Positions 4,522 to 59,384 of a DNA stretch of 64,000 nt are shown one piece after another. The stretch is taken from assembly GCA_022865305.1 (NCBI GenBank), contig JALHSP010000034.1:1-64000 (forward strand), read 5' to 3'. The DNA is from Bacteroidales bacterium. GTDB lineage: Bacteria > Bacteroidota > Bacteroidia > Bacteroidales > VadinHA17. The stretch's first letter is position 1, and each line of letters starts with the position of its first letter. The notes under the pieces are model-generated. The model was given only the letters and a program-made list of their open reading frames with translations, was not told the origin of the DNA and did not search any database. The position numbers were made by a program, and so were the translations under genes.

Positions 4522-7500
4522 CTATTTCAAACCTTTATTAACTATGTGGAAGTAATCGTATGCAACCTCAAACGGCGTTTCAGGCTGGCTGGCTTGTTGC
4601 TGCATTCCAGGCATACCAGGGAAATTACCAAATCCGCCTGTCGTCTGAACACCATTGCATGTAATCATTCCGGCTTTGATGTCTTTCAGCATAATTTCTG
4701 CAGTTCCGACGGCCTTGAAATTCTTTCCGTCCGGTGAGCATGATGCGCTGTAAAGATTGCCTTTCTTTTCGAATCTCAGAATGAGGGTATTATTTTCCTT
4801 TATTATCTCCGCCAGATTAAGGGTTGCTGCAGATGACTGGTATCCATCCTTCTCAATCATAAGCTCCATCACTCCGGCCTGAACTCCGGGTCCTCCAAAT
4901 CCGCCCATTCCTCTTCTTCCGCCACCGCCAGCTCTGTAAACCAGCTTTACATAATTATCATCATCCTGGTAAGCCAGAAGTCCACCGTTTTGCGAAAACC
5001 CCGATGGTCTTTTTGAGAATACAAGCTTCGACTCAACCGTCCAGTCGGTATTGGCATTCTGTAACAGAATATTCTCAGCATTATTATTAGAGGCCAGGAT
5101 GTCTCCTTTTTCACTTGTAATGACCAGTGAACCTGCCTTTTTAGACAGACTCCAGTGTGCAGGATTATCTCTCACCCAGTTCCATTGCTTACCAAGTGTA
5201 CCTCCGTTGAACTCATCATTCACGGATTTAGTTCCAAAGGCTACATTATATTCACTCTTTTCAACTGTAATATTGTCAGTCAGAGTTATAATTGCCGTCC
5301 CCGGTATGCTCTTGGCCTGTGCAATATCCGCTGTAATATCTGTACCGGATGCTGTAGCATTAACCTGAGGTACCGTAGATGATTCTTTTAACAGGTAACT
5401 GTACCCGTGGATATCAGGACTGAATCCTGTAATCTTTTTGCCGTTTACCATAATGGTGGCCGGTTTGAGATCCGGCATAACTTTCAGCGGATAGCTGTCT
5501 GATACTGTTTTGCCATCTACCGTAACATATGCAATTATCGATGCTGTCCCTACTCCTTTAGCCGTTACCTTACCATTCTCATCAACACTCGCTACTGAAG
5601 GATTATTGCTTGAATAAGTTACATTTGCATCTTTAATGTTATAGAAGCTGTCGTCCGACATAGCTGCCGTTACACTCGTCTGTACTGTATTGCCCGGCCT
5701 CAAAACAACCTTCCCGCATTCTGCAACAACTGTCTTCAGTACAGATTTGTAGGTGCCGCTCATCGTCGCTTCTACCTGTCCCCTGATATCCTTCGATGAT
5801 GCTCCTATCTCAAATACATATTTCCCCTGGTCAAACGTTATCCTGTCCTTTTCCCCATCCCAGAACCAAAGATCCGAACAATCTATATCAATGGATACTC
5901 TCTTCGTCTGACCAGCTGCTATCGTTACTCTCTGGAAGCCTTTAAGCCTCTTTATAGGTCTCTCAAGTGAGGCTGGACTATCCGGTGTCCTCATATATAC
6001 CTGGACTATCTCATCTCCATCCACGCTTCCTGTATTCTTTACATCAACACTTACATTGATCTTGTCATTCGGTGTGATTGAACTCTTGCTTATACTGAAA
6101 TTACTATACTCAAATGTGGTATAAGAGAGTCCGAAACCGAATTCATAAGATACATCCTTGTTGAAGTACCAGTATGTCCGGCCATTTTTGTTTTTGCCCC
6201 CTCTGAGATTATAGTCGGTGATCTCCGGAAGATCATTGACCGATTTGTACCATGTGGCATTCAGCTTGCCTCCGGGATTTACATCTCCGAAAAGTATGCT
6301 GGCCATTGCTGTTCCCTGTGCCTGGCCGTTGAAGCCTGTCCATATTATACCTGCAACATTCGGATTATCCTTGAACTGATCCACCTCTACCATACCAAGG
6401 GTTTGCATTACAACGATTGTATTAGAATTAACCGCTGCAACTGATTTGATCAACTCATACTGGTTTCCTGGTAACAGGAGCGAAAATCTGTCAGATTCTT
6501 CTCCGGCCGTTCTGTCATCGGTACCAACAAATAGGATTGCTACATCCGATGATGCAGCCAGGGATAATGTCTCCTTGTCGATGGAAGCTATTTCCGGGGC
6601 ACGATATACAAGCGCAATGGTCTGATTTCCTGTTATGCCAATAGTGTTAACTTTTGCTGAAACCATTCTCGACCTGCCGAAACCACCACCCATACGCATG
6701 CCAGGCTGAATACCGGCAATTTTTACAGTAGCAAACAGGTTACCCGTGGCAGAGCCCACTCTTGCTTCAACAATTCCACCTTCACTGCTGTTTACATTCA
6801 GGTTGATTTTCAGTGAATCTACATTTGTGATATCGATATTGTTATAGGATGTCCAGTCGCCATCTTTAATACCCCTTACTGAAGCAACAGGTCCCATTCC
6901 TGCAGTAAGTACGATACCCTTTGCGGAAGCATCAAATTTAGTTGCATCATATTCTTTAACGGAACCATCTTTCCTGACAGTAGTAAATCCGATAACATTG
7001 AAGAAATCGCTTCTGTTTGAAGTATTTCCACCAGCGCTATATACGACTTCTGTCTTTAATTTGTTCTGTTCAATATAGTTTTTAATACCAGCAAGGGGAG
7101 TGACTCTAAGTGAAGCCTCAGGTGTTCCCGAATAAGGGCCAAGCTCTACTCTATCAGCCTGCGGTCCGATGATGGCAATTTTCTTTATTGCATCTGCTTT
7201 TATCGGAAGTGCCTTGCTATTAGTTTTAGCAACAACATTATTTTTCAGTAACACAGGAGTTTTGGTGGCAACCTCTACTGCAAATGCGCTATGCCCTGGG
7301 GCATTGATGACATTAGGCTGGATACCTGCATAAGGGACTTTGTTTTTAGGATCAAATTCCCCGATTCTCATACGGACTGTGAACATATTGACAAGAGCCA
7401 GATCCATATCAGCCTCGGTAATTAAACCCTGTTTCAAAGCTTCGAGAGCACTTGTCTGGTATACGCTGCCACAGTCAGTATCAACCCCTGATTTCAGTCC

Positions 7501-45691: not shown

Positions 45692-48007
45692 TTAATTATT
45701 CTTCTGACCGGCAATAGCCTTTTTTACTTCTTCGAGATGAAGGTACACATCATGCTGGTAGTAAGGACTCATGTCCCTGCATTTTTCAAGAACCTCCAGG
45801 GCTTCTGCATATTTTCCCTGCTTATATAATCCCCAGCCTTTACAATCTAAAAATAACCATTCATACTCCGGACTTGATTCCAGCGCTTTGTCAATGAGTT
45901 TCAGACCTTCATCTATGTTTCGGTCCTTATCAATAAGGTGCCATGCAAGATAATAATTCCAGATACCGTTTCCAGGATCTAAGTTGATCGCCCTACGAAA
46001 GTATTCCTCTGCTTTATCATACATAGCTACCTGGGAGTAAGCCAAACCAAGATTACGTGCAAGAGCTGACTCTGACCATAAATTGTGTCGGTATATGGAC
46101 ACGTACTGGTCAATATATTTATTGGCGATTAAAGTATCTCTTTCAGTCAAAAAAAGGATTGCTTTTCTCCAGATTATTTTAGGATCATTAGGAAAATCCT
46201 TATCTGCTTTTCTATATAGCTTTTTTTCTTTTTTATACTGGCCAGTCTCATGATATGCCTCTCCTAGCAAAGTATAGTTAAAAGCCCACCAGGGCTTTGT
46301 ACCAAATTTATTATATAGTTCCAGCGATTTTTCAAATTCAGGGATCGCTTTATCATATTGATACAATTCATTGTAAGTAAGACCCATATCATAATAAGTA
46401 CCAGGAAACTGATTATCAATTTCCAGATACTCTCTCATGTATTTTAGTTTTTCAAATGGAGTTTCAAAAAGACCTGCATGATTAATATTAGAAATTATCT
46501 TCATCCATATTGGCATCTGATCTCTCTTTGAGTAAGCAATAAGACTCCATTTCCTTGCCTCGTCCCATAAGCCCTCATTTATACAGGCCACAGAAAGCCT
46601 TAATGTCATGAGAATAAAGTTTGAGTCAATAGCCAGTGCCTGTGAGAACATTTTAATTGCTGTTGTATAATCTCTCTTACTGCGGGCATTTTCACCATAA
46701 AGGTAATACCTGTACGCCTCAGGTGAAGTGGTGGGTGGTCGTTGTTGCTGATAGAGAGGCAATTCATTCGCCAGTTTTGATATTATCAGAGAATTTTTCA
46801 CCATCACAGAAAGCGAATCGATTAGATATAGTATATTCTCTTCTGTCCCATCTAATTGAAAAGCCTTAAAAGTATCTTCTGTTTTTGGGTTTATTAATTG
46901 TGCATTTAATCGTATTGTAGAACCTGCCTGGTTTATACTACCACAGATTAAGACATTTGCATCCAACCTCTGTGATATTGTACTTGCATCAGATTGCAGG
47001 ATTGAAGCATAATTAGTAAGACCTTTGCTTCGAAGCAAACTATTTACAGTTTCTATTTGTCTGATCTTTAGTTCTTCAGAATTTGTCAGAGATGTTATTA
47101 ATTCATTTTGGATTCCGACTTGCCAGATATTCCATATTGTGTCATTGGTCAAATTCTGAAATGGCATCACAGCAACCGATATTTTGCCATTTGAAGTTCT
47201 CAGTCTTTCCAATGTGCTCTTTTTGAATAGTTTCGGATAAACAAGTATTGCAGCAAATACTAATATTGCTATAATTGCTGCCGCCGATAACAATTTTTTT
47301 CTGGTCCATTTATAGGGTTTTTCTTTCTCTGTGTCTGCCTTTTCTTTACCGGCTCTCCCGGCTGGTTCCCTGCGTTCTGGTTTTTCTGTTATCTGTTCAG
47401 CTGGTTCACTCTTTAATCCTAAGATTATTTCTTTTATAGCAAGAGCTACTTTATTTATCTGGTCACGATAGAAGGTTTTATTAAGGTTATCGTTCGGGCT
47501 TTCCTCATCAGACCTCAAAGGCCTGTTAACTCCGGGAGATTTATAAATAAATTCAATGCTACGGAGTACACCTCCCAGAACCGATTCGCATAATTTAATG
47601 TCATCATTATCTAGGTCATGAATGCGAACAGGCAAAACTCTACTCGCAACATTACCATTAGGCAGCTTAACCTTTAATCCAAACTGATCCTGTGAAGCCA
47701 GTTCAACAAATGCCTTGAACTCATGCTCCCAAGCAAATGACTTAGGATCACAATAAGTACGAGAGATGATTGGAATAAAGACCAGACATTTCAGTTTATC
47801 CTTCAGGGAAGCATTAACATCGTGTGTCTCTAATAGACCATCGTGAGGATTCTCATCAAAGTATATTGAAATATCCTCTTTAAAAGTGGCCTCAAGTTCT
47901 CCCTTCAACTGGTTGACAAACTCAGTCACCCAACCATCGTGCTTGTTATCTTTCTGGCGATAGCTTATGAAAATGTCATATTTATAACCTGGAACAAGAC
48001 TTGCCAT
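45692..48007 (-). CDS. TIR-transmembrane-TolB_N/FlgO-like-TPR receptor protein, paralogue 1
   Basis: 771 residues. A cytoplasmic TIR domain (about 8-155) starts with 'YDIFISYRQKD'; the likely catalytic glutamate is Glu96 in 'SFAWEHEF', at the place of the S-x5-E motif of NAD-cleaving TIR domains. A charged Lys/Glu linker (200-235) leads to one transmembrane helix (about 238-258, 'LLSAAAIIAILVFAAILVY'). Next is an FlgO/TolB N-terminal-like domain (275-400; 'ISVAVMPFQNLTND', 'GIQNELITSLTN', 'GSINQAGSTIRLNAQL'). Last come about eight TPR units (430-765). The same extracytoplasmic half occurs in CadC-type regulators and TPR-linked cyclases, so this looks like a one-component receptor with TIR output. 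Ligand and activity are unknown. It has its own promoter. Confidence 0.85.
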   Translation of the reverse strand: MASLVPGYKYDIFISYRQKDNKHDGWVTEFVNQLKGELEATFKEDISIYFDENPHDGLLETHDVNASLKDKLKCLVFIPIISRTYCDPKSFAWEHEFKAFVELASQDQFGLKVKLPNGNVASRVLPVRIHDLDNDDIKLCESVLGGVLRSIEFIYKSPGVNRPLRSDEESPNDNLNKTFYRDQINKVALAIKEIILGLKSEPAEQITEKPERREPAGRAGKEKADTEKEKPYKWTRKKLLSAAAIIAILVFAAILVYPKLFKKSTLERLRTSNGKISVAVMPFQNLTNDTIWNIWQVGIQNELITSLTNSEELKIRQIETVNSLLRSKGLTNYASILQSDASTISQRLDANVLICGSINQAGSTIRLNAQLINPKTEDTFKAFQLDGTEENILYLIDSLSVMVKNSLIISKLANELPLYQQQRPPTTSPEAYRYYLYGENARSKRDYTTAIKMFSQALAIDSNFILMTLRLSVACINEGLWDEARKWSLIAYSKRDQMPIWMKIISNINHAGLFETPFEKLKYMREYLEIDNQFPGTYYDMGLTYNELYQYDKAIPEFEKSLELYNKFGTKPWWAFNYTLLGEAYHETGQYKKEKKLYRKADKDFPNDPKIIWRKAILFLTERDTLIANKYIDQYVSIYRHNLWSESALARNLGLAYSQVAMYDKAEEYFRRAINLDPGNGIWNYYLAWHLIDKDRNIDEGLKLIDKALESSPEYEWLFLDCKGWGLYKQGKYAEALEVLEKCRDMSPYYQHDVYLHLEEVKKAIAGQKNN

Positions 48008-48278
48008 CTTAGGTCTATTTATTTCATTATCAAAGTTAAATCAAAGTTTGAATGAAAGCAATTTTATTTTCCCTTCAAATCAGGTGAAGAGCCATGTGTG
48101 GAAGAGTGAGCAGATGAAGGATGAGAAAGACAGGAAGGAAGGAGTGAATCCCGTGAGTAATGCGACGTTAGAACCTCTGTATGTAATTGATGTTCTTATG
48201 GATATTTATAGTTAATCTATGCCAGTACAACCTGCTAAATTGATAAAAGAAACAGCTCTTTTATGAAAGCGTCTCACA
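48008..48278. other. Noncoding stretch upstream of TIR gene 1
   Basis: It contains the TIR gene 1 promoter. On the plus strand a short frame near 48165-48213 reads EPLYVID, like a SusC plug fragment; it is too short to call. Nothing else is seen. Confidence 0.4.
48031..48061 (-). promoter_or_regulatory. Promoter of TIR gene 1
   Basis: Minus strand: TTGC (48061-48058), 19-base spacer, TAACTTTG (48038-48031), 24 bases before the ATG. The same boxes and spacing precede TIR genes 2 and 3. Confidence 0.75.
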
Positions 48279-48440
48279 CTACGAAAAAACATCAACAATG
48301 AAATCAATAATAATCCTAAACCATTTGAACCATTTTGACCTTTTCGGTTTAGTTTTATTATTGTTATCCAAAGGTTCTTGTTTTATTCTTTTAAGGTCGC
48401 CCTCAATTATTAAATCCGATATTAAATCCGACTTTTTCAT
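48279..48440 (-). CDS. Small 53-residue basic amphipathic protein
   Basis: The minus-strand frame runs from ATG at 48440 to TAG at 48281-48279. The product begins MKKSDLISDLIIEGDLKRIK, has a basic middle (KTKPKRSKWFKWF) and ends in a hydrophobic segment (RIIIDFIVDVFS). It is supported by a well-formed promoter 50 bases upstream whose sequence is homologous to that of the FISUMP gene. No family is recognised. It could be a membrane-active peptide or a small regulator. It lies between asnA and TIR gene 1, all on the minus strand. Confidence 0.45.
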   Translation of the reverse strand: MKKSDLISDLIIEGDLKRIKQEPLDNNNKTKPKRSKWFKWFRIIIDFIVDVFS

Positions 48441-48818
48441 ATAAAGATTATTTTGTGATACTGAGAGTATTCTGGAATCTTAACTTGTACAAAGTTATTC
48501 CACATTTAACCCAAAGTCAATTATATTTCAACACGACTAATAGGATTATTCATAAAAGAAGCCAGCACCCTTAAAATGTGAATGTCATAATTCTATCTGC
48601 ATAAAATTGGAAGGAAGAATACTGGCTGTCACAAATATATAACATTACAGATAGTTTAATCTTAAGTATTTATTGGAAAACCATTAGCCTTGATCACTTT
48701 TAAGCGTAGTAAATTGACCGTCCCCGTTCGGAGTTAATTGTTTGTTGTTAAGTTATGAATGTTAATTAAAGTCTGAACGGGTAAATATGGTTAGAATGTC
48801 CGGCTTTTGTAATAAGGC
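48441..48818. other. Leader of the small gene plus noncoding sequence after asnA
   Basis: It holds the small gene's promoter (48490-48520). The sequence around 48490-48535 is similar to the FISUMP promoter region at 52065-52110, so it was probably duplicated with it. The remainder up to the asnA stop shows no gene. Confidence 0.5.
48490..48520 (-). promoter_or_regulatory. Promoter of the 53-residue gene
   Basis: TTGA (48520-48517), 19-base spacer, TAACTTTG (48497-48490). The flanking AATTGACTTTGG is also found at the FISUMP promoter. Confidence 0.65.
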
Positions 48819-49853
48819 TTATTTTAAATGAATGTTATGCTTTCTGCAGGTTTCAATCATTTCTTCAGGCCATACGGAGGACTGAACTTCTCCAATATGG
48901 GCGGCACGTAAAAAAAACATGCATAAACGGGATTGTCCGATTCCTCCCCCGATTGAAAGAGGGAAGGTCCCTTCTAACAAGGCTTTATGAAATTCGAGTT
49001 TAGTGCGTTCTTCACAACCCCTGATTTTCAGTTGATTGAGTAGGGTTTCCTTGTCTACACGAATCCCCATGGAGGAGATTTCAATTGCTGAATTCATAAT
49101 AGGATTCCAAAAAATAATATCTCCGTTCAAACCTTTATGGCCTTCAGTAGTAGGAGTGGTCCAGTCATCATAGTCGGGAGCGCGTCCGTCGTGAATTTCT
49201 CCGTCCGACAGGGGACCTCCTATGCCGATGATAAAGATGGCTCTATATTTTTTAGCGGCTTCGATTTCCCTTTCCCTGGGAGTTAATTGAGGATATTCAT
49301 TCAGTAAATCTTCTGTGTGAAGAAAGGTTATCTCTTTGGGAAGAATAGGATAGATATGAGAGTAAGATTCATACACAATTTGCTCCATGCATTTCATTGC
49401 CTCATAGATCTTTCTGACTGTTGCTTTTAAAAATTCCAGGTTACGGTCTTCTGCGGTTATGGTTTGTTCCCAATCCCACTGATCCACATACAGAGAGTGA
49501 AGATTGTCGAGATCTTCATCGCTGCGTATTGCATTCATATCGGTATACAGTCCGTAATTGGCCGGAATACCGTAGGCTCCGAGTTTCATTCTTTTCCATT
49601 TGGCCAATGATTGAATAACTTCTGCTTTACGCTCTCCCATGTACTTGATAGGAAAAGATACAGCACGTTCCACACCGTTTAGGTCGTCATTAATCCCGGT
49701 TCCCGCCAAAACAAACAGAGGGGCTGTAACTCGTCTGAGATTCAATTGTTTGGACAATTCCTCCTGAAAGACTGCTTTCAGCATTTTAATGGCTTGCTCC
49801 ATTGTTTCCGGTACCAATTGAGGGTGGTATTCTTTAGGAATGTAAAGTGTCAT
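48819..49853 (-). CDS. asnA: Aspartate-ammonia ligase (asparagine synthetase A)
   Basis: 344 residues, full length. It makes asparagine from aspartate, ammonia and ATP (giving AMP and pyrophosphate) in the cytoplasm. It belongs to the class II aminoacyl-tRNA synthetase-like fold. Seen: 'PLFVLAGTGINDDLNGVERAV', 'NYGLYTDMNAIRSDEDLDNLHS', 'YVDQWDWEQ', 'FIIGIGGPLSDGEIHDGRAPDYDDW' and the C-terminal 'FPLSIGGGIGQSRLCMFFLR'. A possible -7 box TATATTTG lies at 49919-49912. It is a housekeeping gene within the accessory region. Confidence 0.97.
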   Translation of the reverse strand: MTLYIPKEYHPQLVPETMEQAIKMLKAVFQEELSKQLNLRRVTAPLFVLAGTGINDDLNGVERAVSFPIKYMGERKAEVIQSLAKWKRMKLGAYGIPANYGLYTDMNAIRSDEDLDNLHSLYVDQWDWEQTITAEDRNLEFLKATVRKIYEAMKCMEQIVYESYSHIYPILPKEITFLHTEDLLNEYPQLTPREREIEAAKKYRAIFIIGIGGPLSDGEIHDGRAPDYDDWTTPTTEGHKGLNGDIIFWNPIMNSAIEISSMGIRVDKETLLNQLKIRGCEERTKLEFHKALLEGTFPLSIGGGIGQSRLCMFFLRAAHIGEVQSSVWPEEMIETCRKHNIHLK

Positions 49854-50199
49854 AATTTACATTTATAAAGCTAAAGAAAGGATATTGTAATAATACTTAA
49901 TTTAAACAGTGCAAATATAATATTATAATAATTAAAAAACACTATTATCTTTAAATATGTAAATAATAAATACATTTATTAATAGAATAAAACATATTTG
50001 CCTAAAAATGTTTCATATTGAAATAAGCCTGACGAAAACCAAATGATATTTGGAATTACGCCGCTGGGTTATCACTAGGTTTTAAGAAGACCTTAATCAA
50101 AAAAAGGAAATCGCTTGAAGAAATCGTTGAGTTTCTGTAAACATACATTATTCAACCGGAAATAGAATCCTGGTTTTGACTCTTATATCCTAACCTCTT
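49854..50199. other. 346-base noncoding stretch
   Basis: A/T-rich. On the plus strand a frame ending near 50139 reads KKRKSLEEIVEFL-stop, perhaps the end of a decayed gene. Nothing firm is seen. Confidence 0.3.
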
Positions 50200-50388
50200 T
50201 TAATTTAGGCTTAAGAATAATTTCAACATATTGAGGCGATCCAGATAAGGCTCATAGGTCATATTTCCGTTGTTGGCTTCTGGTACTTTCTTGTTTTTGT
50301 ATCTAATATCATATTTTCTACGCACTACATTAAATATTTCATGATTAATATCAAGTTTATCAATTAAATGCAGAGGTTTTAGAATCAT
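50200..50388 (-). CDS. Hypothetical 62-residue protein coupled to the MNKQ peptide
   Basis: It starts with the ATG at 50388, which overlaps the stop of the preceding frame as ATGA. The product begins MILKPLHLIDKLDINHEIFN and continues with VVRRKYDIRYKNKKVPEANN and a short tail. The frame stays open upstream to 50508, so a frameshifted single gene is possible. No family is recognised. The coupling and the upstream promoter are its only support. Confidence 0.3.
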   Translation of the reverse strand: MILKPLHLIDKLDINHEIFNVVRRKYDIRYKNKKVPEANNGNMTYEPYLDRLNMLKLFLSLN

Positions 50389-50498
50389 AATAGTACTCTC
50401 CTTGGTCGTCCTCCTCTTTCCTTCTTTCTCTCCCTTCTTCTTGTCTTTGATTCTGATTGTTCTGTTGTTGTGGCGTTTGTATTTTGTTGTTTGTTCAT
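50385..50498 (-). CDS. Small 37-residue MNKQ peptide with AT-hook-like end
   Basis: The frame starts at ATG 50498, eight bases after the -7 box TATCTTTG (50513-50506). The product begins MNKQQNTNATTTEQSESK and ends in a very basic stretch with ERGGRPRR, similar to an AT-hook core (GRP between basic residues). The same MNKQ-NT start occurs at the other copy of the module (45417). Its stop overlaps the next start (ATGA). It could also be the broken N-terminus of a DNA-binding mobilisation-type protein. Confidence 0.35.
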   Translation of the reverse strand: MNKQQNTNATTTEQSESKTRRRERKKERGGRPRRVLL

Positions 50499-50730
50499 AC
50501 AAATACAAAGATAATTCAATGCATTGACTCGTCTGAAATGCCCTTTATGACCATCAACCCGAAAATGCCTTTCGGTAGACTGGCAGGGATGTCAACCAGA
50601 CTTTTATTTCAAGAGGAATAAAAAGAATGCTTATTTCAGGTCGGCGGAATCAACAAACTCGTTTTCCTTTTAAATTGGTCACTCCCGATATCAATGTTAT
50701 GACCTCTCTAGCGGATGTTTATTTCAAGCT
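50468..50730 (-). repeat. Conserved noncoding module, copy B
   Basis: Homologue of 45386-45660, in the same orientation. It lies immediately 3' of the FISUMP gene and ends with the promoter and start of the MNKQ peptide. The shared blocks are listed under copy A. Confidence 0.65.
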
Positions 50731-50773
50731 GATTTCCGGGGGTTAGCAATAAGTTATTGTTATAAATGGGTAA

Positions 50774-52036
50774 TTAATCCTTTAAACAACGAACAGAATT
50801 ACCATCCCACTCAGTTCCGTTTATCCTGCCAATATCGCTGCGATTGTAGAGCACGGAACGGCACCATCCACCAACAATACCATACGCGGTAGATGACCAC
50901 CAGCGACCACCGCTTCCAATTTCGTAGAATACTCCATTGTTTGGACGGTAGCCACCCGGAAGAGCAGTAAAACCGGTTTCGTTGGTGGCTCCTGTATTTG
51001 GTGAAGTCCAGTGTGCGGTACCTGTTTCTTTAAGTTTGCCTCCGACTTCATAAGAATCTCCTAAATAATTGGTTAATGTTGTCCATTCGTCATCGGAAGG
51101 CACTTGCCAACCTGTGGGGCATAATTTACCGGTTCTTACAGCGCTCCAGTTATATAATGCACCATAAGTGGCTTTATATGTAGCTTCATCGTTATTGTAC
51201 CAGCAATAACCAGGAGTCAGATAACCTTGCCATTCAGCATTACTAGTTAGTAACGCAATAATGGCACCATCATTGTATTTGGTTGTTTTGAGGTTTTCTG
51301 CCATCCAAACCTGAGTTCCAATCTCCACAACCCGGTAGTTATTATTATCACCATCTGTACAAGCTATAAAATTAAATGTAATAGTTTTGTCCTGTGAAGG
51401 GATGTCTGTTTTTACAGTGCTGTAATTTCCTGAAATTCCTGTAAGTTTTAACCTGTCACCTGTCGAATAAGCCATGTTAACAGTCGCCAGAGATCCTTTA
51501 TCTTCATCATTCAATTGCTTTACATCAACTGCCTGGTTATTAGTAATTTGTTCAATACTAATATTAGCCTTCGTAGTGTTGCTGCTTAATAATCTTCCCG
51601 AATAACTATATGTATTGCCTTTTACACTGATCAGATAAAGACCATTATTCAAACCTGAGAGTTGAAATTCCTGTACAGAATTTTCTAAATAGCTTTGAAT
51701 TTGAGCTACCTGTTTACCGGTTATGTCAATTACGGTAATAACAGCATTACCTGCGTAAGGCGGGGAAATCTGCAGTTTAGAATTGTCCGTCGCAGGATTC
51801 GGGAAAACCTTTAATACATATGATTGTCTGTTCTCAACCGGATTAATTCCTGTTGTTCCTGTCAGGTGCAGAATGTCATTTCCGTTCAATGTAAGTGATG
51901 TACCTGTTATTAAGTTCTTAACTATAACAGTATTGACAGTAGATGATGCACCTGTTCCGGCAAAACTGATCAAGTAATTCTGTGCATTTGCTTTAAGTGC
52001 ACAAAAAATGGCTAATAAAACCAATACTATCTTCAT
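50774..52036 (-). CDS. FISUMP-domain exported protein with an internal T9SS-like sorting domain
   Basis: 420 residues with a signal peptide ending near ANAQ (19). A Por/T9SS type A sorting-like domain lies at about 70-150 ('VLKVFPNPATDNSKLQIS', 'VIDITGKQVAQIQS', 'GLNNGLYLISVKG'), which is unusual because it normally ends the protein. The C-terminal half (about 228-420) is the Fibrobacter succinogenes major paralogous domain, a formylglycine-generating/C-type-lectin-like fold ('YRVVEIGTQVWMAENLKTTK', 'GKLCPTGWQVPSDDEW', 'GGRWWSSTAY', 'NSVRCLKD'). It is probably surface-located with a binding role. Its promoter is of the same type as those of the TIR genes. Confidence 0.82.
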   Translation of the reverse strand: MKIVLVLLAIFCALKANAQNYLISFAGTGASSTVNTVIVKNLITGTSLTLNGNDILHLTGTTGINPVENRQSYVLKVFPNPATDNSKLQISPPYAGNAVITVIDITGKQVAQIQSYLENSVQEFQLSGLNNGLYLISVKGNTYSYSGRLLSSNTTKANISIEQITNNQAVDVKQLNDEDKGSLATVNMAYSTGDRLKLTGISGNYSTVKTDIPSQDKTITFNFIACTDGDNNNYRVVEIGTQVWMAENLKTTKYNDGAIIALLTSNAEWQGYLTPGYCWYNNDEATYKATYGALYNWSAVRTGKLCPTGWQVPSDDEWTTLTNYLGDSYEVGGKLKETGTAHWTSPNTGATNETGFTALPGGYRPNNGVFYEIGSGGRWWSSTAYGIVGGWCRSVLYNRSDIGRINGTEWDGNSVRCLKD

Positions 52037-52064
52037 GATAATTTTTATTATTGGCTCTTTTATA

Positions 52065-52095
52065 CAAAGTTACACCTTGTTTAAGCCAAAGTCAA
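52065..52095 (-). promoter_or_regulatory. Promoter of the FISUMP gene
   Basis: TTGA (52095-52092), 19-base spacer, TAACTTTG (52072-52065), 29 bases before the ATG. Confidence 0.7.
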
Positions 52096-52144
52096 TTTTA
52101 TTTTAGATTGTACCCCATACCAGGCCAATATGGGTTATATATCA

Positions 52145-52262
52145 CGGGTATATCTCAAGTGGATGTCTACATAAGAGTGAACTTTCTGTTAGACGGATTG
52201 CAGTAATCACCGGACATTCAATCAACACTGTCCGGAAAATTAAACAATTGAAGGAGCTTTGA
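52145..52262 (+). pseudogene. Remnant of a helix-turn-helix protein
   Basis: A plus-strand frame ends with TGA at about 52260-52262 and reads YISSGCLHKSELSVRRIAVI, then TGHSINTVRKIKQLKEL. This is a clear helix-turn-helix ending like those of transposases or resolvases. No start and no upstream part are found, so it is a fragment. The surrounding 52037-52317 has no other feature. Confidence 0.3.
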
Positions 52263-52317
52263 GAAGTAGTGGAATCACCTTTAAAAACTTTGAGTATAAG
52301 TAAAAAATAATGCATAA

Positions 52318-52335
52318 TGTTAAATACATTTTACA
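52318..52335 (+). promoter_or_regulatory. HipB operator O1
   Basis: TGTTAAATACATTTTACA, an 18-base near-palindrome matching O2 at 16 of 18 bases. The centres of O1 and O2 are 32 bases apart, about three helical turns. Confidence 0.65.
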
Positions 52336-52343
52336 AAATGATC

Positions 52344-52351
52344 TATATTTG
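52344..52351 (+). promoter_or_regulatory. -7 box of the hipBA promoter
   Basis: TATATTTG fits TAnnTTTG and overlaps the start of operator O2, so repressor binding at O2 would block the promoter. Confidence 0.6.
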
Positions 52352-52367
52352 TAAAATATATTTTACA
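52350..52367 (+). promoter_or_regulatory. HipB operator O2
   Basis: TGTAAAATATATTTTACA is a perfect 18-base palindrome two bases before the hipB ATG. Confidence 0.75.
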
Positions 52368-52369
52368 TT

Positions 52370-52690
52370 ATGAAACAGAGAAATACTATATTATTACCCA
52401 AAGCACAAAGGATTATTTCAGTTCTTGGGGAAAATATTAAGCTTGCAAGACTGAGAAGGAAATATAGCATGCAACAGGTAGCTGAGAGAGCAAATATCAG
52501 CAGACCTACGTTAGTATCCATAGAAAAAGGAAACCCAAACGTCACCATTGGGGCATATGTTAAGGTACTTGCTGTACTTGGCCTGGAGAAAGATATTCTT
52601 GAGGTAGCAAAAGATGATACATTAGGACGAAGGCTTCAGGATGCAAAAATAATTACCAGGGAGCGAGCACCTAAAAGAATAGGATTATAA
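52370..52690 (+). CDS. hipB: HipB-type antitoxin/repressor (XRE family)
   Basis: 106 residues. An XRE helix-turn-helix covers about 17-72 ('IKLARLRRKYSMQQVAERAN', 'ISRPTLVSIEKGNPNVTIGA'), followed by a basic tail. It binds and neutralises the HipA kinase encoded nine bases downstream and represses the pair through the two palindromes just upstream. Size and order are as in other hipBA operons. Confidence 0.88.
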   Translation: MKQRNTILLPKAQRIISVLGENIKLARLRRKYSMQQVAERANISRPTLVSIEKGNPNVTIGAYVKVLAVLGLEKDILEVAKDDTLGRRLQDAKIITRERAPKRIGL

Positions 52691-52699
52691 AGTTACATT

Positions 52700-53974
52700 A
52701 TGGAAACCAGAAATAATCAAAAGACAATTTATGTATATGCTCATTGGACTGGCATGAAAGAGCCAGTGTACATGGGTGAACTTAAAGCGGAATTTACCAG
52801 AGGGAAGGAAATATTTTCTTTTAGTTACTCCGAAAGTTGGCTTGCTTCACGTTATTCGCAGATTCTCGATCCTGAATTACAGTTCTATTCCGGATCTCAA
52901 TATGCAAGTGATGAAAAGCAAAATTTTGGAGTTTTCCTGGATTCTTCTCCTGATCGCTGGGGTCGTCTCTTGATGAGAAGAAGTGAGGCAGCACTAGCAA
53001 GATCAGAGGGACGAACCGAAAAAACTCTTAGAGAATCAGATTATCTGCTTGGTGTCTTTGATGGCCATCGTATGGGAGCTTTACGTTTTAAAGAGAATCC
53101 TGATGGACCATTCCTTAATAACAATGAAGAGCTTGCTTCTCCACCATGGACTTCCATTAGAGAATTGGAACAAATTAGCTTAAGACTTGAAGATGATAAA
53201 GCAATTGAGGATCCTGAATATTTTAAATGGCTCATGATGCTGGTAAATTCTGGTTCATCTTTAGGTGGAGCCAGACCAAAAGCAAGTGTCATTGATGACA
53301 AAAAAAACCTTTGGATCGCAAAATTCCCAAGTAAGACTGACATAAAGGATATAAGCGGGTGGGAAATGGTAGCTAATGAGCTTGCCAGCAATGCAGGTAT
53401 GAATGTTGCTGTTTCGAGGATTCAAAAATTTTCGAACAAATATTATACTTTCCTTACGAAAAGATTTGACAGGACAACCGATGGCGAAAGAATTCATTTT
53501 GCTTCTGCTATGACGATGTTAGGATATACTGATGGTACTGATTTTCATGATGGTGTCAGCTATCTTGAAATAGTCGATTTTTTAACAAATAATGGAGCTG
53601 ATATAGAAAGTGATTTAACAGAATTATGGAGAAGGATAGTGTTTAATATCTTTATTTCCAGTACAGATGATCATCTTCGGAACCATGGTTTTATATTAAC
53701 TGAAAAAGGATGGATTCTTTCTCCTGTATTTGATATAAATCCAAATGAGGATGGATCTGGGTTATCACTCAATATTTCCCTTGATGATAATGCCCTGAAC
53801 TTAGACATCCCATTAGAAGTTGTTGAATATTTTCGTTTAAATAAGGAGAGTGGATTAAAAATAATTGAACAAATTAAAAAATCCGTAAGTAATTGGAGGA
53901 GTGTTGCCAATAAGTATCAACTTCCTAAATCAGAGCAGGAACTTATGGCAAAGGTATTCGATAGATTTATATAA
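52700..53974 (+). CDS. hipA: HipA-family serine/threonine kinase toxin
   Basis: 424 residues, full length. N-terminal HipA_N subdomain (about 20-135; 'FGVFLDSSPDRWGRLLMRR'), glycine-rich activation loop 'SGSSLGGARPKA' (184-195), ATP-binding 'LWIAKFPSK' (Lys208), substrate-side 'FLTKRFDR', catalytic loop 'STDDHLRNHGF' (Asp323) and metal-binding 'SPVFDINPN' (Asp345). All key kinase residues are present, so it should be active. Classical HipA phosphorylates GltX; other members modify other targets, and which applies here cannot be told. It forms an operon with hipB and is flanked by the TIR genes. Confidence 0.9.
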   Translation: METRNNQKTIYVYAHWTGMKEPVYMGELKAEFTRGKEIFSFSYSESWLASRYSQILDPELQFYSGSQYASDEKQNFGVFLDSSPDRWGRLLMRRSEAALARSEGRTEKTLRESDYLLGVFDGHRMGALRFKENPDGPFLNNNEELASPPWTSIRELEQISLRLEDDKAIEDPEYFKWLMMLVNSGSSLGGARPKASVIDDKKNLWIAKFPSKTDIKDISGWEMVANELASNAGMNVAVSRIQKFSNKYYTFLTKRFDRTTDGERIHFASAMTMLGYTDGTDFHDGVSYLEIVDFLTNNGADIESDLTELWRRIVFNIFISSTDDHLRNHGFILTEKGWILSPVFDINPNEDGSGLSLNISLDDNALNLDIPLEVVEYFRLNKESGLKIIEQIKKSVSNWRSVANKYQLPKSEQELMAKVFDRFI

Positions 53975-54260
53975 AATAACTTGTATCATAAGTAGTCTGA
54001 TTGCAGATGGGATCTGTGAAAATCATTTATAATCTGTGAAAAACGATTATTTTAATGTAAAATAGGAATTCTTGTTAGGCACAATAAGGTAAATAAGAAT
54101 TCAAGGTAGTGTCAAGAATATCAAAAAATTCTCCCCCCAAATAATTATTATTTTTTAAATACCTGATATGTAGTTAATTACAAATCAGACCTCCCCCTGG
54201 AATTATACTACCAAAAAAAAAGTTACTTTTTTGGTTGAGTATTGCTGTAAAAAGTACTGG
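53975..54260. other. Noncoding region after hipA
   Basis: It contains an inverted repeat GAATTCTT/AAGAATTC around 54068-54105 and an A/T hairpin ACCAAAAAA/TTTTTTGGT (54210-54235), which may serve as terminator for converging genes. No gene is seen. Confidence 0.4.
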
Positions 54261-54524
54261 TCAGAAATTAAATTCTAATAGATCATTCTTCTTATCAACT
54301 TCCCACCATAATCTCGTGGACATTATTTCGTCGTATTCTCTGTCATCCATAATTCGCCAGATGATGTAAGCATCAGGTTGCAGGATTTGACTTACAGTGA
54401 TTATTTTGTTTTCGCAAAAGAAGTACAAGGTGCAATAAACAAAACCTTTGTCCTTATAAACTTCACTACTTGTCTCCCCTCTCCCCATCACCTCTTCTTC
54501 CCCTCCTTCATTTCTGGCTGGCAA
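54261..54524 (-). CDS. Hypothetical small protein after TIR gene 2
   Basis: A frame of up to 87 residues overlaps the end of TIR gene 2 by 17 bases; internal Met13 may be the start. The product includes 'GFVYCTLYFFCENKIITVSQ' and 'PDAYIIWRIMDDREYDEIMS' and ends WWEVDKKNDLLEFNF. The composition is protein-like, but no family is recognised. It may be a decayed gene remnant. Confidence 0.25.
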   Translation of the reverse strand: MPARNEGGEEEVMGRGETSSEVYKDKGFVYCTLYFFCENKIITVSQILQPDAYIIWRIMDDREYDEIMSTRLWWEVDKKNDLLEFNF

Positions 54525-56829
54525 CAGCCTTTTTTGCTACCTCGAGGTGAAGAAATGCTGAATGGCCATAAACAGCATTCTTCATTCTTAAATCCCAACT
54601 TTTCTGGAGAATCTCTAATGCCTCCTTGTATTTACCTTGTTTATATAAGCCCCAGCCTTTAGTATGCAGATAATTAAAGTCTTCAGGATTTGATTCTAGT
54701 GCCTTATCAACGAGTTCCAATCCTTTGTCAATATTTCGGTCTTTATTGATAAGGAAATAAGCCAGATTGTTCATTCGTTTCGGATTTTCAGATTCTAAAA
54801 GAAGTGCTCTTCGATAATTTTCCTCTGCTTTACCCTGAATATTTGCCTCTGAATAAATATCAGCCAGCCCGGACAATATATTTGATTCCGGTTCTGAATT
54901 AACTTTCCGGAGAGATAAGTATTTCCCAATATATTCATTTGCCGCTGCCGAATCTCCTTCAGTAAATGCCAGGACAGCTTGTCTGTGGATTAACAGTGGA
55001 TCATTGGGAAAATCCTTTTCCGCTTTTCTGTAAAGCTTTTTTTCTTTTTTAAACTGGCCTGTTACATGATATGCGTATCCAAGATCAGTATAGTTTTGAA
55101 TCCACCCGGGTTTTGAATCCCATTTATTAAATATTGCTAAGGATTTTTCAAATCCGGGGATTGCTTCATCATATTGAAATAAGTTACTATAACTTAATCC
55201 CAAACTATAATAAAAATATGGTAGTTGATCGTCAAGTTCCAGTAGTTGTTTTACATAATTGATCTGTTCTCTGGGAGTTTCGAAGTAACTTGCATAGTTC
55301 AAATCGATATACAGTTTCTGCTGAAAGGACGCAAGATCCCTTTTACTGTAAGCTTTCAGACACCATTTTTTTGCTTCTTCGTACATTTCCTGATCCCCAT
55401 AAGAATATGAGATCATTGTCATTGCAACAACCAGATTTGAATCGATGCTTATTGTCTGTAAAAACCAGTCCCTGGCAGCATGATAATCTCTTTTATCGTA
55501 GAAAGCATCAAAACCGTAAAGGTAATATCTGTATGCTTCAGAGGAACTGGTTGAAATAAATGGATGAAATCCCTGATTCATTTCCTTTGATATAACAGAT
55601 ATTACAAGGGAATTGGTTACCATTACTGACAGTGAATCAGTTAATAGCAATATCTCCTCCAGGGTTGTGCCTTGTATCTGAAATGATTTTAAAACTTCTT
55701 CTGTTTTTGAATCAAATAATTGTGCATTAATTCGTACTATAGATCCTGCCTTTTTTATGCTGCCATAGATAAAAACACTGGCTTTCAGTCTTTGGGAGAT
55801 AGAACCGGCGGCAGAAGGTGTGATTGTGGAATTAGTAAGTCCTTTGTTTTTAATATAGTAATTTATTGATTCCGTTTGCCTGACCTCCAGGATGTCAGAA
55901 AAGTTTGAAAGGTAGGTTATTAAATTATCCTGTATACCATTTTGCCAGACATTCCATGCGGTATCATTGGTCATATTTTGAAATGGCATAACTGCAATGG
56001 AAATTCTACCATCTGAAGGTCCCAGATTTTCAAATGGATTTTCTTTAAATATTTTCTGAAAGACAATTACTGCTGCAATTACTAATATTGCTGTGATTAC
56101 AAAACCTGATTGAAGCGTATACTTTGTTGATTTTGCAGGTATCTCCTGCTTTTTCCTTCGATTCTCTTCAAAGATTTCTGCCAGTTGCTTACCACGGGAA
56201 ATCTTCTCTTCTGGTGACAGTTGTTGTTCAGCCTTCAATCCAAGGATTATTTCTTTTACAGCAAGGGCTACTTTGTTAATCTGGTCACGATAGAAGGTTT
56301 TGTTAAGATTATCACCTGAACTGTTTTCTTTAGGTCGCAGAGGTCTGTTAACTCCTGGAGATTTATAAATAAATTCAACGCCACGAAGTACACTCCCCAG
56401 GAATGATTCACATAATTTAATATCAGCAGAATCCAGATCATGAATACGAACCGGTAGCAATCTGTCAGCTACATTGCCGTCAGGCAATGTTATCTTCAGC
56501 CCGAACTGATCCTTTGACGCTTGTTCAACAAATGCCTTGAATTCATGTTCCCATACAAATGATCTGGGATCACAATAAGTACGTGAAATGACCGGAATAA
56601 AAATAAGGCATTTGAGTTTTTCATTAAGTGAGGCATCCACATCATTTGTCTCCAGAAGTCCATCATGATGATTGGTGTCAAAATAAACACTTATCTCCTC
56701 TTTAAATGTTGATTCAAGTTCACCCTTCAGATGATTGACAAACTCAGTAACCCAGCCGTCGTGTTTATTATCTTTCTGACGATAGCTGATGAAGATGTCG
56801 TAAGTATAGCCCTGAATAATGCTTGGCAT
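54508..56829 (-). CDS. TIR-transmembrane-TolB_N/FlgO-like-TPR receptor protein, paralogue 2
   Basis: 773 residues, same layout as paralogue 1: TIR (8-155) with 'YDIFISYRQKD' and Glu96 in 'SFVWEHEF', linker rich in Arg/Lys/Glu, transmembrane helix (about 241-261), FlgO/TolB_N-like domain ('ISIAVMPFQNMTNDTAWNVW', 'GSIKKAGSIVRINAQLF') and TPR units to the end. It is the most divergent of the three: the linker and TPR half differ widely while the TIR half is nearly unchanged. It lies head-to-tail with paralogue 3, with 185 bases between, and has its own promoter, so it need not be co-transcribed. Confidence 0.85.
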   Translation of the reverse strand: MPSIIQGYTYDIFISYRQKDNKHDGWVTEFVNHLKGELESTFKEEISVYFDTNHHDGLLETNDVDASLNEKLKCLIFIPVISRTYCDPRSFVWEHEFKAFVEQASKDQFGLKITLPDGNVADRLLPVRIHDLDSADIKLCESFLGSVLRGVEFIYKSPGVNRPLRPKENSSGDNLNKTFYRDQINKVALAVKEIILGLKAEQQLSPEEKISRGKQLAEIFEENRRKKQEIPAKSTKYTLQSGFVITAILVIAAVIVFQKIFKENPFENLGPSDGRISIAVMPFQNMTNDTAWNVWQNGIQDNLITYLSNFSDILEVRQTESINYYIKNKGLTNSTITPSAAGSISQRLKASVFIYGSIKKAGSIVRINAQLFDSKTEEVLKSFQIQGTTLEEILLLTDSLSVMVTNSLVISVISKEMNQGFHPFISTSSSEAYRYYLYGFDAFYDKRDYHAARDWFLQTISIDSNLVVAMTMISYSYGDQEMYEEAKKWCLKAYSKRDLASFQQKLYIDLNYASYFETPREQINYVKQLLELDDQLPYFYYSLGLSYSNLFQYDEAIPGFEKSLAIFNKWDSKPGWIQNYTDLGYAYHVTGQFKKEKKLYRKAEKDFPNDPLLIHRQAVLAFTEGDSAAANEYIGKYLSLRKVNSEPESNILSGLADIYSEANIQGKAEENYRRALLLESENPKRMNNLAYFLINKDRNIDKGLELVDKALESNPEDFNYLHTKGWGLYKQGKYKEALEILQKSWDLRMKNAVYGHSAFLHLEVAKKAVASQK

Positions 56830-56863
56830 TGGATTAAGTTAATTTCAAGACAATCTTCATTAT

Positions 56864-56894
56864 CAAAGTTAATCCTTAATTGGACTAAATGCAA
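56864..56894 (-). promoter_or_regulatory. Promoter of TIR gene 2
   Basis: TTGC (56894-56891, within TTTGC), 19-base spacer, TAACTTTG (56871-56864), 35 bases before the ATG. This is the best consensus match of the three. Confidence 0.75.
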
Positions 56895-57014
56895 AGATAA
56901 AAATAACCTGTCTTGAACAGGTTCTTAAGGATCCGGATTTATAAGTTCTGTTGATATTCTTTTGAGGCAATACCTGAGGTTGACAGTATCTGATTCTTTC
57001 TGATTTGGTCGTGA

Positions 57015-59330
57015 TTATTGGTTCTGACTGGCGGCAGCCTTTTTTACTTTTTCAAGAAAAAGATAACTTGAATGATCATAGACTGGTCTTAATTTCCAGC
57101 TTTTTTCAAGTACCTCCACTGCTTCATTATATTTTCCCAGCTTATATAATCCCAGACCTTTATTTAGCAGATATATGTAACTATTCGGCCTTATTTTCAG
57201 TGCCTTATTTATGAGTTCCATACCTTCATTAATATTTCGGTCATTAGCTATCAGGAACCAGCCAAGATTATTAAGACTGGAAGGATGCTCAGGTTCAAGG
57301 GATAAAATATCTCTATAACATTTTTCAGCTTTATCCAGAAAGCCTGCCTCTGTGTAAAGATAAGCCAGACTTGGTGCTATGCTTATCTCAGGCACAGAAT
57401 TGTTTTTCATTACTGTTATAAATTTCTCAATATATCGATTTGCAGTAATCGTATCTTTTTCAGTCAATAAAAGGATCGCCTGTCTTTGAATTAAAGCAGC
57501 ATCATCGGGAAAATCCTGTTCAGCTTTCTTATAAAGTCTTTTTTCTTTCCTGTAACTGGCAGTCTTATGATATGCATATCCAAGCATAACATAATCATTT
57601 GCCCACTTTGGTTTTGAATCCCATTTTTTATATATCTCCAGAGCATTTATCATTACAGAAATTGCTTTATCATACTGATCCAGGGCAACATAAATCCGGC
57701 CTAATTCATAATAAAGTGGCGGATATTGATCATCAATTTCCAGAAATTGATTTAAGTATTTAATTTCTTCATTTGGTGTCTCAAATAACATGGCATGAAG
57801 CCAATTAATGTGAATATTCTGACTTATGGGTATCTGATTTCTTTTTTCATAAACCTTCAGGCACCATTTTTTTGCCGGGTCAAACTGCCACTGGTTATAA
57901 TAAGCCACAGAAAGCATTGTTATTGCAGAATAAAAGTTTGAGTCAATAGCTATAGCTTGCAGATACATGTTCGCTGCTGTCGTAAAATCTGTCCTGTTGA
58001 AAGCATTTTGTCCATGCATGAAATACCTGTATGCTTCAGGCGAATTTGTAGGCGAAACATACTTGTTAAGGATAGATGATTCTTTTCTTAATTGAGCTAT
58101 TATGAGAAAATCTTTTACCTGTACAGAAAGTGAATCAATTATGTTAAAGATCATTTCTTCTTTTGCAGGACTTTTTATCTGAAAGGACTTAATGACCTCT
58201 TCATTTTTCGAGTCAATAAGTTGTGTATTTACCCTTACTGTATTACCCTCCTGATTTATGCTTCCATAAATTAGGACACTTGCTTCCAGTTTTTGTGAGA
58301 TTATACTTGCAACAGATGGCACGATTGAGGCATAATTTGTAAGGCCTCTGCTCTGAAGCAGGCTGTTGACCGTCTCTATCTGCCTGACTTTTAATTCTTC
58401 AGAGTTTGTCAGGTTTGTTATCAATTCATTCTGGATCCCGCCCTGCCAGATATTCCATATTGTGTCATTGGTCAGATTCTGAAAAGGCATTACAGCGATA
58501 GAAATTTTGCCATCTGCAGATCTAAGTTTTTCCAATATACTTTTTTTGAATAGCTTAGGATAAACAAGTACCACAACAAGTGCTAATATTGCTATTATTG
58601 CTGCCGCTGATAATAACTTTTTCCTGGTCCATTTAACAGGTTTTTCTCTCTCTGCCTCTCTCTCTTCCTTATCGGCTGTCCCGACTGGTTCCCTGTGCTC
58701 AGGTTTCTCTTTTACCTGTTCACCCGGTTCATTCTTCAATCCTAAGATTATCTCTTTTATCGCAAGAGCTACTTTGTTTATCTGGTCACGATAGAAGGTT
58801 TTATTAAGATTGTCATTCGGGCTTTCCTCCTCAGCTCTCAAAGATCTGTTAACTCCGGGAGATTTATAAATAAGCTCAATGCCACGAAGTACACCACCCA
58901 GAACCGATTCGCATAATTTAATATCCTCACTGTCGAGGTCATGAATACGTACCGGAAGCACCCTGTTAGCCACATTACCATTAGGCAATTTTACCTTCAA
59001 TCCGAACTGATCCTGTGAAGCCTGTTCAATGAATGCTTTAAACTCATGCTCCCATGCAAATGATCTGGGATCACAATAAGTCTGTGAAATGACCGGAATA
59101 AAGATCAGACATTTGAGTTTCTCTTTCAGTGAGGCATCCACATCGTGTGTCTCCAGAAGTCCATCATGAGGATTGATGTCAAAATAGACACCGATCTCCT
59201 CTTTGAATGTTGATTCAAGCTCTCCCTTCAGATGATTGACTAACTCGGTAACCCAACCGTCGTGTTTGTTGTCTTTCTGACGGTAGCTGATAAAGATGTC
59301 GTAACTATATCCTTCAATAATGCTTGACAT
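57015..59330 (-). CDS. TIR-transmembrane-TolB_N/FlgO-like-TPR receptor protein, paralogue 3
   Basis: 771 residues, closely similar to paralogue 1 throughout the TIR domain, linker (KWTRKKLLSAAAIIAIL) and FlgO/TolB_N-like part; the TPR half differs. The TIR domain has 'YDIFISYRQKD' and Glu96 in 'SFAWEHEF'. The TPR units (about 430-765) include 'AANMYLQAIAIDSNFYSAIT', 'AEKCYRDILSLEPEHPSSLN' and 'EGMELINKALKIRPNSYIYL'. It is probably an inner-membrane protein with TIR in the cytoplasm. It has its own promoter and lies next to a polytopic membrane protein gene on the same strand. Confidence 0.85.
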   Translation of the reverse strand: MSSIIEGYSYDIFISYRQKDNKHDGWVTELVNHLKGELESTFKEEIGVYFDINPHDGLLETHDVDASLKEKLKCLIFIPVISQTYCDPRSFAWEHEFKAFIEQASQDQFGLKVKLPNGNVANRVLPVRIHDLDSEDIKLCESVLGGVLRGIELIYKSPGVNRSLRAEEESPNDNLNKTFYRDQINKVALAIKEIILGLKNEPGEQVKEKPEHREPVGTADKEEREAEREKPVKWTRKKLLSAAAIIAILALVVVLVYPKLFKKSILEKLRSADGKISIAVMPFQNLTNDTIWNIWQGGIQNELITNLTNSEELKVRQIETVNSLLQSRGLTNYASIVPSVASIISQKLEASVLIYGSINQEGNTVRVNTQLIDSKNEEVIKSFQIKSPAKEEMIFNIIDSLSVQVKDFLIIAQLRKESSILNKYVSPTNSPEAYRYFMHGQNAFNRTDFTTAANMYLQAIAIDSNFYSAITMLSVAYYNQWQFDPAKKWCLKVYEKRNQIPISQNIHINWLHAMLFETPNEEIKYLNQFLEIDDQYPPLYYELGRIYVALDQYDKAISVMINALEIYKKWDSKPKWANDYVMLGYAYHKTASYRKEKRLYKKAEQDFPDDAALIQRQAILLLTEKDTITANRYIEKFITVMKNNSVPEISIAPSLAYLYTEAGFLDKAEKCYRDILSLEPEHPSSLNNLGWFLIANDRNINEGMELINKALKIRPNSYIYLLNKGLGLYKLGKYNEAVEVLEKSWKLRPVYDHSSYLFLEKVKKAAASQNQ

Positions 59331-59353
59331 TTGGGGTTTATTTATTTCATTAT

Positions 59354-59384
59354 CAAAGTTAAGTCAAAGTTAGAACGAAAGCAA
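59354..59384 (-). promoter_or_regulatory. Promoter of TIR gene 3
   Basis: TTGC (59384-59381), 19-base spacer, TAACTTTG (59361-59354), 23 bases before the ATG. A second TAACTTTG overlaps the spacer. Confidence 0.75.

Follow-up and report, generated by a model that had tools for sequence, protein, structure and literature searches.

Can a bacterial TIR domain serve as the cytosolic output of a receptor that senses the outside of the cell? The bacterial TIR proteins characterised so far are, to our knowledge, mostly cytosolic immune effectors. The question is raised by three genes, T1, T2 and T3, within a 64,000-nucleotide stretch of a Bacteroidales genome (contig JALHSP010000034.1 of assembly GCA_022865305.1; hereafter the window), each encoding an N-terminal TIR domain followed by a transmembrane (TM) helix, a TolB_N/FlgO-like domain and an array of tetratricopeptide repeats (TPRs). 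The original prediction for this locus had described a three-member family of candidate one-component TIR receptors. A one-component receptor architecture is likely, and T1-T3 are probably members of a large Bacteroidales family of such receptors, with the TIR domain in the cytosol, the sensor in the periplasm and a TIR that probably cleaves nicotinamide adenine dinucleotide (NAD). All three genes are intact and lie on the minus strand, with the following features (AF2, AlphaFold2).

45692..48007, minus strand: T1, TIR-TM-TolB_N/FlgO-TPR protein, 771 amino acids
47408..48007, minus strand: T1 TIR domain, residues 1-200 (alignment to T3, 85% identity over 204 amino acids)
47237..47293, minus strand: T1 TM helix, residues 239-257 (hydropathy)
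54508..56829, minus strand: T2, TIR-TM-TolB_N/FlgO-TPR protein, 773 amino acids
56230..56829, minus strand: T2 TIR domain, residues 1-200 (alignment to T3, 83% identity over 204 amino acids)
56047..56103, minus strand: T2 TM helix, residues 243-261 (hydropathy)
57015..59330, minus strand: T3, TIR-TM-TolB_N/FlgO-TPR protein, 771 amino acids
58731..59330, minus strand: T3 TIR domain, residues 1-200 (AF2 model and PDB fold matches)
59043..59045, minus strand: T3 Glu96, putative catalytic glutamate (invariance among relatives)
58551..58625, minus strand: T3 TM helix, residues 236-260 (AF2 helix, hydropathy)
58080..58523, minus strand: T3 TolB_N/FlgO-like alpha/beta domain, residues 270-417 (Pfam below cut-off, AF2)
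57024..58073, minus strand: T3 TPR array, residues 420-769 (Pfam TPR, AF2, fold matches)

The predicted domain order was confirmed in all three proteins. In the full-length AF2 model of T3 (pLDDT 76.3, pTM 0.62), a linker modelled with low confidence leads to a helix at 236-260, which is followed by an alpha/beta domain at 276-417 and by TPR helices at 420-769; TIR fold and TM helix, which the prediction had singled out for checking by structure prediction, are both present. The TPRs are clear Pfam matches, and FlgO, CsgG and LpoB fall below their cut-offs. FlgO is matched in 5 of 15 members from this genome, at best with 19.7 of the 22.6 bits of the cut-off (E 8e-4, the value also found for T3). 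The alpha/beta character of the T3 TolB_N domain is taken from the AF2 model, and no fold match to this domain by itself was found among the 50 rows obtained with the full-length model, which fall mainly on the TPR part.

The T3 TIR domain adopts a flavodoxin-like TIR fold in the AF2 model, and its PDB fold matches are closest to immune TIRs; a TIR profile found no match among PDB sequences. The Pfam family TIR_2 is matched below cut-off by T2 and T3 (residues 12-102), and by 9 of 15 members from this genome at E values up to 0.1 (best 0.0042, none above the curated cut-off). Cut-off-based annotation overlooks the TIR domain. Of the homologues with a name among the 120 listed of 7,033 database matches, most bear 'tetratricopeptide repeat protein' and/or 'TolB-like protein' as their label, and TIR is not used for any of them. 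Constraint is strong across the entire TIR alignment. Glu96, which lies within AF2 helix 91-106 of T3 and corresponds to the conserved glutamate of helix alpha-C, is invariant in 75/75 relatives and in 95/95 of a larger set. The NADase-TIR motif has a tryptophan at -4 from the catalytic glutamate, whereas here it stands at -3. Cleavage of NAD by the receptor TIR is predicted with slightly more confidence than doubt.

A constant TIR and exchangeable sensors

The two halves of these proteins are found in other combinations. The sensor half of T3 recurs elsewhere in its own genome, at locus L019, with an AraC-type helix-turn-helix (HTH, recognised by eye) replacing the TIR domain; identity is 48% over positions 3-386 of the 512-residue sensor query. 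The last part of this gene (461-2478, G000:C114) shifts to another frame, as in a broken gene or an assembly error. The same AraC-HTH and TPR architecture occupies a single frame at L037 (HTH_18, E 4.5e-16), which is 55% identical to L019 across the HTH. Conversely, the same TIR is followed by a TM helix and an FGE-sulfatase domain in four proteins from four genomes (with PEGA in one), and the same TIR is joined to a cytosolic NB-ARC/STAND NTPase in one protein of the genus (L130). A set of 95 distinct relatives of at least 600 amino acids comprised 84 TIR-TM-TolB-TPR proteins, six TIR-TolB-TPR proteins without a TM helix, four TIR-TM-FGE-sulfatase proteins and the one TIR-NB-ARC protein; these came from fetched loci, some chosen for odd frame length, and the proportions are those of a non-random sample with a readable start. 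Two of the TM-less proteins end in an HD domain (L102, 7102-9741; L103, 6387-8963). A single clade was not rejected for either the FGE-sulfatase or the TM-less forms (p-AU 0.775 and 0.144), leaving independent origins of these forms unsupported.

The exchange with AraC bears on orientation. AraC DNA-binding domains must reside in the cytosol, and because the HTH replaces the TIR domain and the helix is single, the N-terminus would be inside and the sensor outside. A hydrophobic helix is present at 226-263 in all 16 paralogs of this genome, and a hydrophobic peak separates TIR from sensor in 88/95 relatives (84 TolB-TPR and four FGE-sulfatase proteins; extra peaks uncounted). In 81 of 98 rows, duplicate and nested ones included, lysine and arginine are more numerous on the N flank of the helix than on the C flank; the flanks tie in 11 rows and the C flank leads in 6. 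In T2 itself the two counts are equal. The AraC swap and flank charges favour a TIR domain in the cytosol and a sensor half outside, as proposed for a one-component receptor. The predicted distinction from cytosolic TIR systems is qualified by the six TM-less proteins and by L130.

The halves also differ in how freely they vary. In pairwise comparison the 16 paralogs share on average 74% of residues in the TIR domain, but 28% in the TolB-like domain and 22% in the TPRs. Fourfold-degenerate sites have an identity of 0.35 in the TIR and 0.33 in the sensor, with 0.285 expected from base composition. Because these sites are near saturation, the uniformity of the TIR reflects selection on the protein rather than youth of the copies, with T3/T2 and C170/C116 as exceptions. 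These outlier pairs (0.68 and 0.85, respectively) may have exchanged sequence recently or locally; as a general cause, recent gene conversion was rejected on the same near-saturation of fourfold sites (0.35 vs 0.285 at random).

A working model would place the TIR domain in the cytosol, the helix across the inner membrane and the TolB_N/FlgO-TPR half in the periplasm, where it would bind a ligand. Since TPR arrays usually bind peptides or proteins, the ligand is probably one of these. Binding would cluster the TIR domains, which would most likely cleave NAD through Glu96, so making a messenger or lowering NAD; less likely, the clustered domains would only provide a partner with a scaffold. One constant output would be fed by many receptors that differ in their sensors and are expressed from family-specific promoters.

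Family size, upstream motifs and remnants

The three window genes belong to the proposed family, which is not limited to them. Their own genome (4.98 Mb, 99.5% complete) holds 16 intact members over ten contigs, plus N-terminal remnants and the relative with the AraC-type HTH; the 16 receptors and the remnants account for all 19 of its TIR matches. A homology search revealed a large family, with 7,033 of 7,999 scored database proteins matching residues 1-430 at E 1e-3. A TIR match was found in 18/60 genomes, own included: among other genomes of the genus 16/35 have one (best E < 1e-70 in 13), and among those of other families of the order 1/24. Class-wide, 6/295 genomes match at 1e-10, again own included. 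Matches per genome, fragments counted, range from 0 to at least 52, the maximum being G031 (52 of 60 candidates scored), in which at least 25 open frames of 600 amino acids or more occur among the matches listed. Tandem arrays elsewhere reach five same-strand members (L044, the last truncated by the contig end), and others contain broken copies. One member (L013) shares its neighbours with L055 and partly with L061 and L064, in several genomes. Members also occur on L046 (JAFGIK010000066.1), a record titled Candidatus Dojkabacteria, probably through a binning error.

Ahead of the window genes lie shared upstream motifs of a type termed class B.

48016-48045, minus strand: putative class B family-specific promoter/leader of T1 (shared upstream motif)
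56856-56871, minus strand: class B core motif upstream of T2 (shared upstream motif)
59339-59368, minus strand: putative class B family-specific promoter/leader of T3 (shared upstream motif)

The class B 25-mer TTTAAMTTTGATAATGAAATAAATA has seven sites in the whole of the own genome at up to 3 mismatches, all seven preceding a receptor or, once, a remnant; a reversed control gave 0. A second motif, class A (TTTG...TAACTTTATCACAATGAA), precedes other members, twice in the own genome, and a class A 42-mer is identical in three genomes. Altogether 39 sites were collected: in the 60 genomes 19 of class B at 2 mismatches and 19 of class A at 3, plus one own-genome class B site at 3. All fall in genomes with strong receptors, and 34 precede the start of a receptor or its remnant, of which 30 were recognised by script and four by eye (L151, L165, L170 and L175); five have no receptor start. 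The Bacteroidota promoter consensus is TTTG or TAnnTTTG, which the motif core fits, and TAnnTTTG occurs in 43/92 upstream regions (7.9 expected). Both motifs may drive expression.

In most of the remnants seen, the promoter motif survives together with between 8 and about 106 codons of the gene start, the rest being lost; because of its conservation, the 5' end was favoured by the searches. They were seen at L022, L120-L127, L142, L154-L156, L162, L165, L170 and L175, the L022 example (6922-7044) consisting of the first 28 codons, a stop and then the last dozen or so.

Partners, defence and other readings

Although we favour catalytic receptors, the TIR could instead be a non-catalytic adaptor through which the receptors contact the TIR of a partner to pass on the signal, in the manner of Toll-like receptors and MyD88. 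The strong constraint throughout the TIR would suit such contacts, and a candidate partner exists: close TIR relatives are carried in other Bacteroidota families by an operon of a TIR-DUF4062 gene and an nSTAND1 ATPase gene, whose TIR is 50-55% identical to that of T3. In G073 and G217 this operon and a receptor gene are divergently arranged; G274 has a receptor on either side of it, each at a distance of some 17 kb, and in G126 and G085 it provides the sole TIR match. No TIR of the TIR-DUF4062 type occurs, however, among the 19 TIR matches of the own genome. Animal adaptor TIRs have lost the catalytic glutamate, while Glu96 is kept throughout the 95 relatives. The adaptor reading is judged unlikely for T1-T3. 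In the other Bacteroidota lineages, the operon hints that a STAND ATPase may be signalled to through TIR-TIR contacts.

The operon may itself be an undescribed STAND system. It was seen at L101 (3835-9541), L102 (9997-15652), L104 (6109-11818), L106, L107 and L181, with WD40 repeats in L106 and L107, and was barely matched by PADLOC where scanned (L101, L102). At L106 the listed open reading frame (ORF) begins within the TIR, and at L181 the models for DUF4062 and TIR all stayed short of the limit. Co-occurrence with nSTAND1 in general was uninformative, such proteins being found in genomes both with and without receptors. Two further candidates, for a linked effector and for a general partner, were rejected. 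FISUMP proteins of the type IX secretion system (T9SS) are the commonest neighbours (6/146 scanned), but of the 18 FISUMP matches in the genome (17 over the cut-off) no more than two are within about 5 kb of a family member. Upstream of receptors stands a gene that combines a SLOG-like N-terminus with a DUF4231/SLATT region, at L040 (977-2896) and L066 (5585-6973; this receptor is partial and contains a stop), both in genomes outside the genus; the SLOG-like assignment was made by eye without a library match, and the DUF4231/SLATT region is below cut-off. It is absent at E 1e-5 from the own and 35 same-genus genomes.

The prediction had also raised anti-phage defence. In such a defence, which may include self-killing, the receptors would respond to an envelope change caused by a phage and use up NAD. 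Several features would suit this: the TIR fold is nearest to immune TIRs, the same TIR is fused to an NB-ARC NTPase, tandem arrays contain broken copies, and presence is patchy even within one genus. Among 146 of 193 neighbour proteins scanned (120-640 amino acids plus size limits, which excluded the SLOG-like gene of L040), 23 PADLOC models were matched as a raw count, including PD-Lambda-1 (5e-11) and HamA (9.6e-7), one each. Yet the matches are scattered: 22 of the 23 models have a single matching protein, and 12 of them belong to the candidate (PDC) class. Among the receptors themselves, T1 and T3 gave weak PADLOC matches and T2 none. No relative was found in viral contigs (by pattern scan) or in phages, and 72,556 plasmids yielded one, a TIR gene of Hymenobacter with an nSTAND1 gene next after it. 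STALD/ThsA was found in none of 36 genomes of the genus (own plus 35). The defence proposal thus gained no support, and defence is conceivable but improbable as the main role.

Slightly more doubtful still is a cytosolic regulator merely tethered to the membrane, whether through reversed orientation, a second membrane segment or a sensor half that binds a cytosolic protein. Several observations count against a periplasmic sensor and for this reading. The C flank of the TM helix is likewise positive, and T2 and one other paralog show a further hydrophobic peak inside the sensor. The relatives that lack the helix, six in number and in two cases bearing an HD domain, show that the sensor half can act in the cytosol; cysteine depletion of the sensor, tried as a sign of export, proved alike in members with and without the helix. 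A single TM helix nevertheless forbids placing both halves in the cytosol, the AraC swap places the N-terminus inside, the N flank is the more positive in most rows, and FGE-sulfatase ectodomains stand at the same place in TIR proteins. The wide range in copy number, the arrays and the many 5'-end remnants might point to selfish genes that expand and have no set function in the cell. This is scarcely credible given purifying selection on the TIR with near-saturated synonymous sites and given that L013 keeps neighbours in common with loci of several genomes.

Within the window, a HipA-like kinase gene lies between T1 and T2 (52370-53974, plus strand; HipA_C, E 1.5e-46), with a 106-residue ORF just upstream; the two are possibly a toxin-antitoxin pair. 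A FISUMP-domain protein is encoded at 50774-52036 (minus strand), its T9SS sorting domain lying mid-protein (residues 77-145) and not at the C-terminus.

Comparison with known receptors and significance

CadC-like proteins and TPR-linked class III cyclases carry an N-terminal output, one TM helix and a C-terminal TolB/TPR half. The present family shares this plan, and its AraC version is known here from L019 and L037; the output of T1-T3 is TIR rather than DNA binding or cyclase. The model TIGR04510, 'putative peptide modification system cyclase', matches T1 at residues 324-601 (E 4.5e-13), far below its cut-off. Thoeris resembles the family in a TIR output presumed to use NAD and in a weak ThsB match of T1 (E 0.0046), but the family lacks a STALD-domain ThsA in own or same-genus genomes and its receptors are membrane-bound with their own sensor. 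TIR-STAND/NLR proteins share the TIR, which occurs on NB-ARC and beside nSTAND1 ATPases in other families, but T1-T3 have no STAND NTPase domain by Pfam scan. Group 6 actinobacterial TIRs have, in the text quoted from their description, an N-terminal TIR, C-terminal TPRs and over 700 amino acids, as here; they belong to another phylum, the quoted beta-A/BB-loop consensus differs, and that text mentions neither TM nor TolB (PMC7075850). Amoebal TirC also has a TM helix, at the N-terminus of a TIR that acts as an NADase, but differs from the present proteins in being eukaryotic and TIR-STING derived, with no sensor domain recognised there (PMC13142454). No description of TIR-TM-TolB-TPR proteins was recognised in searches of the open-access PubMed Central literature. 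The TIR domain, the TolB-TPR half and the one-component layout are each known already; new is that they come together in a large family of receptors whose TIR is strictly constant and whose upstream motifs are specific to the family.

Animal Toll-like and IL-1 receptors place a cytosolic TIR, a single TM helix and an extracellular sensor in one chain (PMC7075850). The likeness extends to repeat or modular sensors and to many sensors serving one kind of output; unlike them, the receptors here have an N-terminal TIR that keeps its glutamate, and ectodomains of TolB_N-TPR or FGE-sulfatase in place of leucine-rich repeats or immunoglobulin domains. By analogy of layout, the family is a bacterial parallel to the animal Toll-like receptors. 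A fuller proposal is put forward tentatively, as less probable than not: a Toll-like repertoire in some Bacteroidales, each genome encoding dozens of TIR receptors that cross the membrane once, with swappable TolB-TPR or FGE-sulfatase sensors outside the cytoplasm and one strictly constrained, catalytically competent TIR, co-expressed from family-specific promoters, the TIR being common to cytosolic NB-ARC and nSTAND-linked proteins. Thousands of proteins with an unannotated TIR domain would provide a test bed, and the constant output with variable sensors, together with the AraC version of the sensor, makes both halves testable by domain exchange. If the receptor reading is true, bacterial TIR signalling would gain a role in sensing the outside of the cell, and the family would show a Toll-like receptor layout arising from swappable parts.
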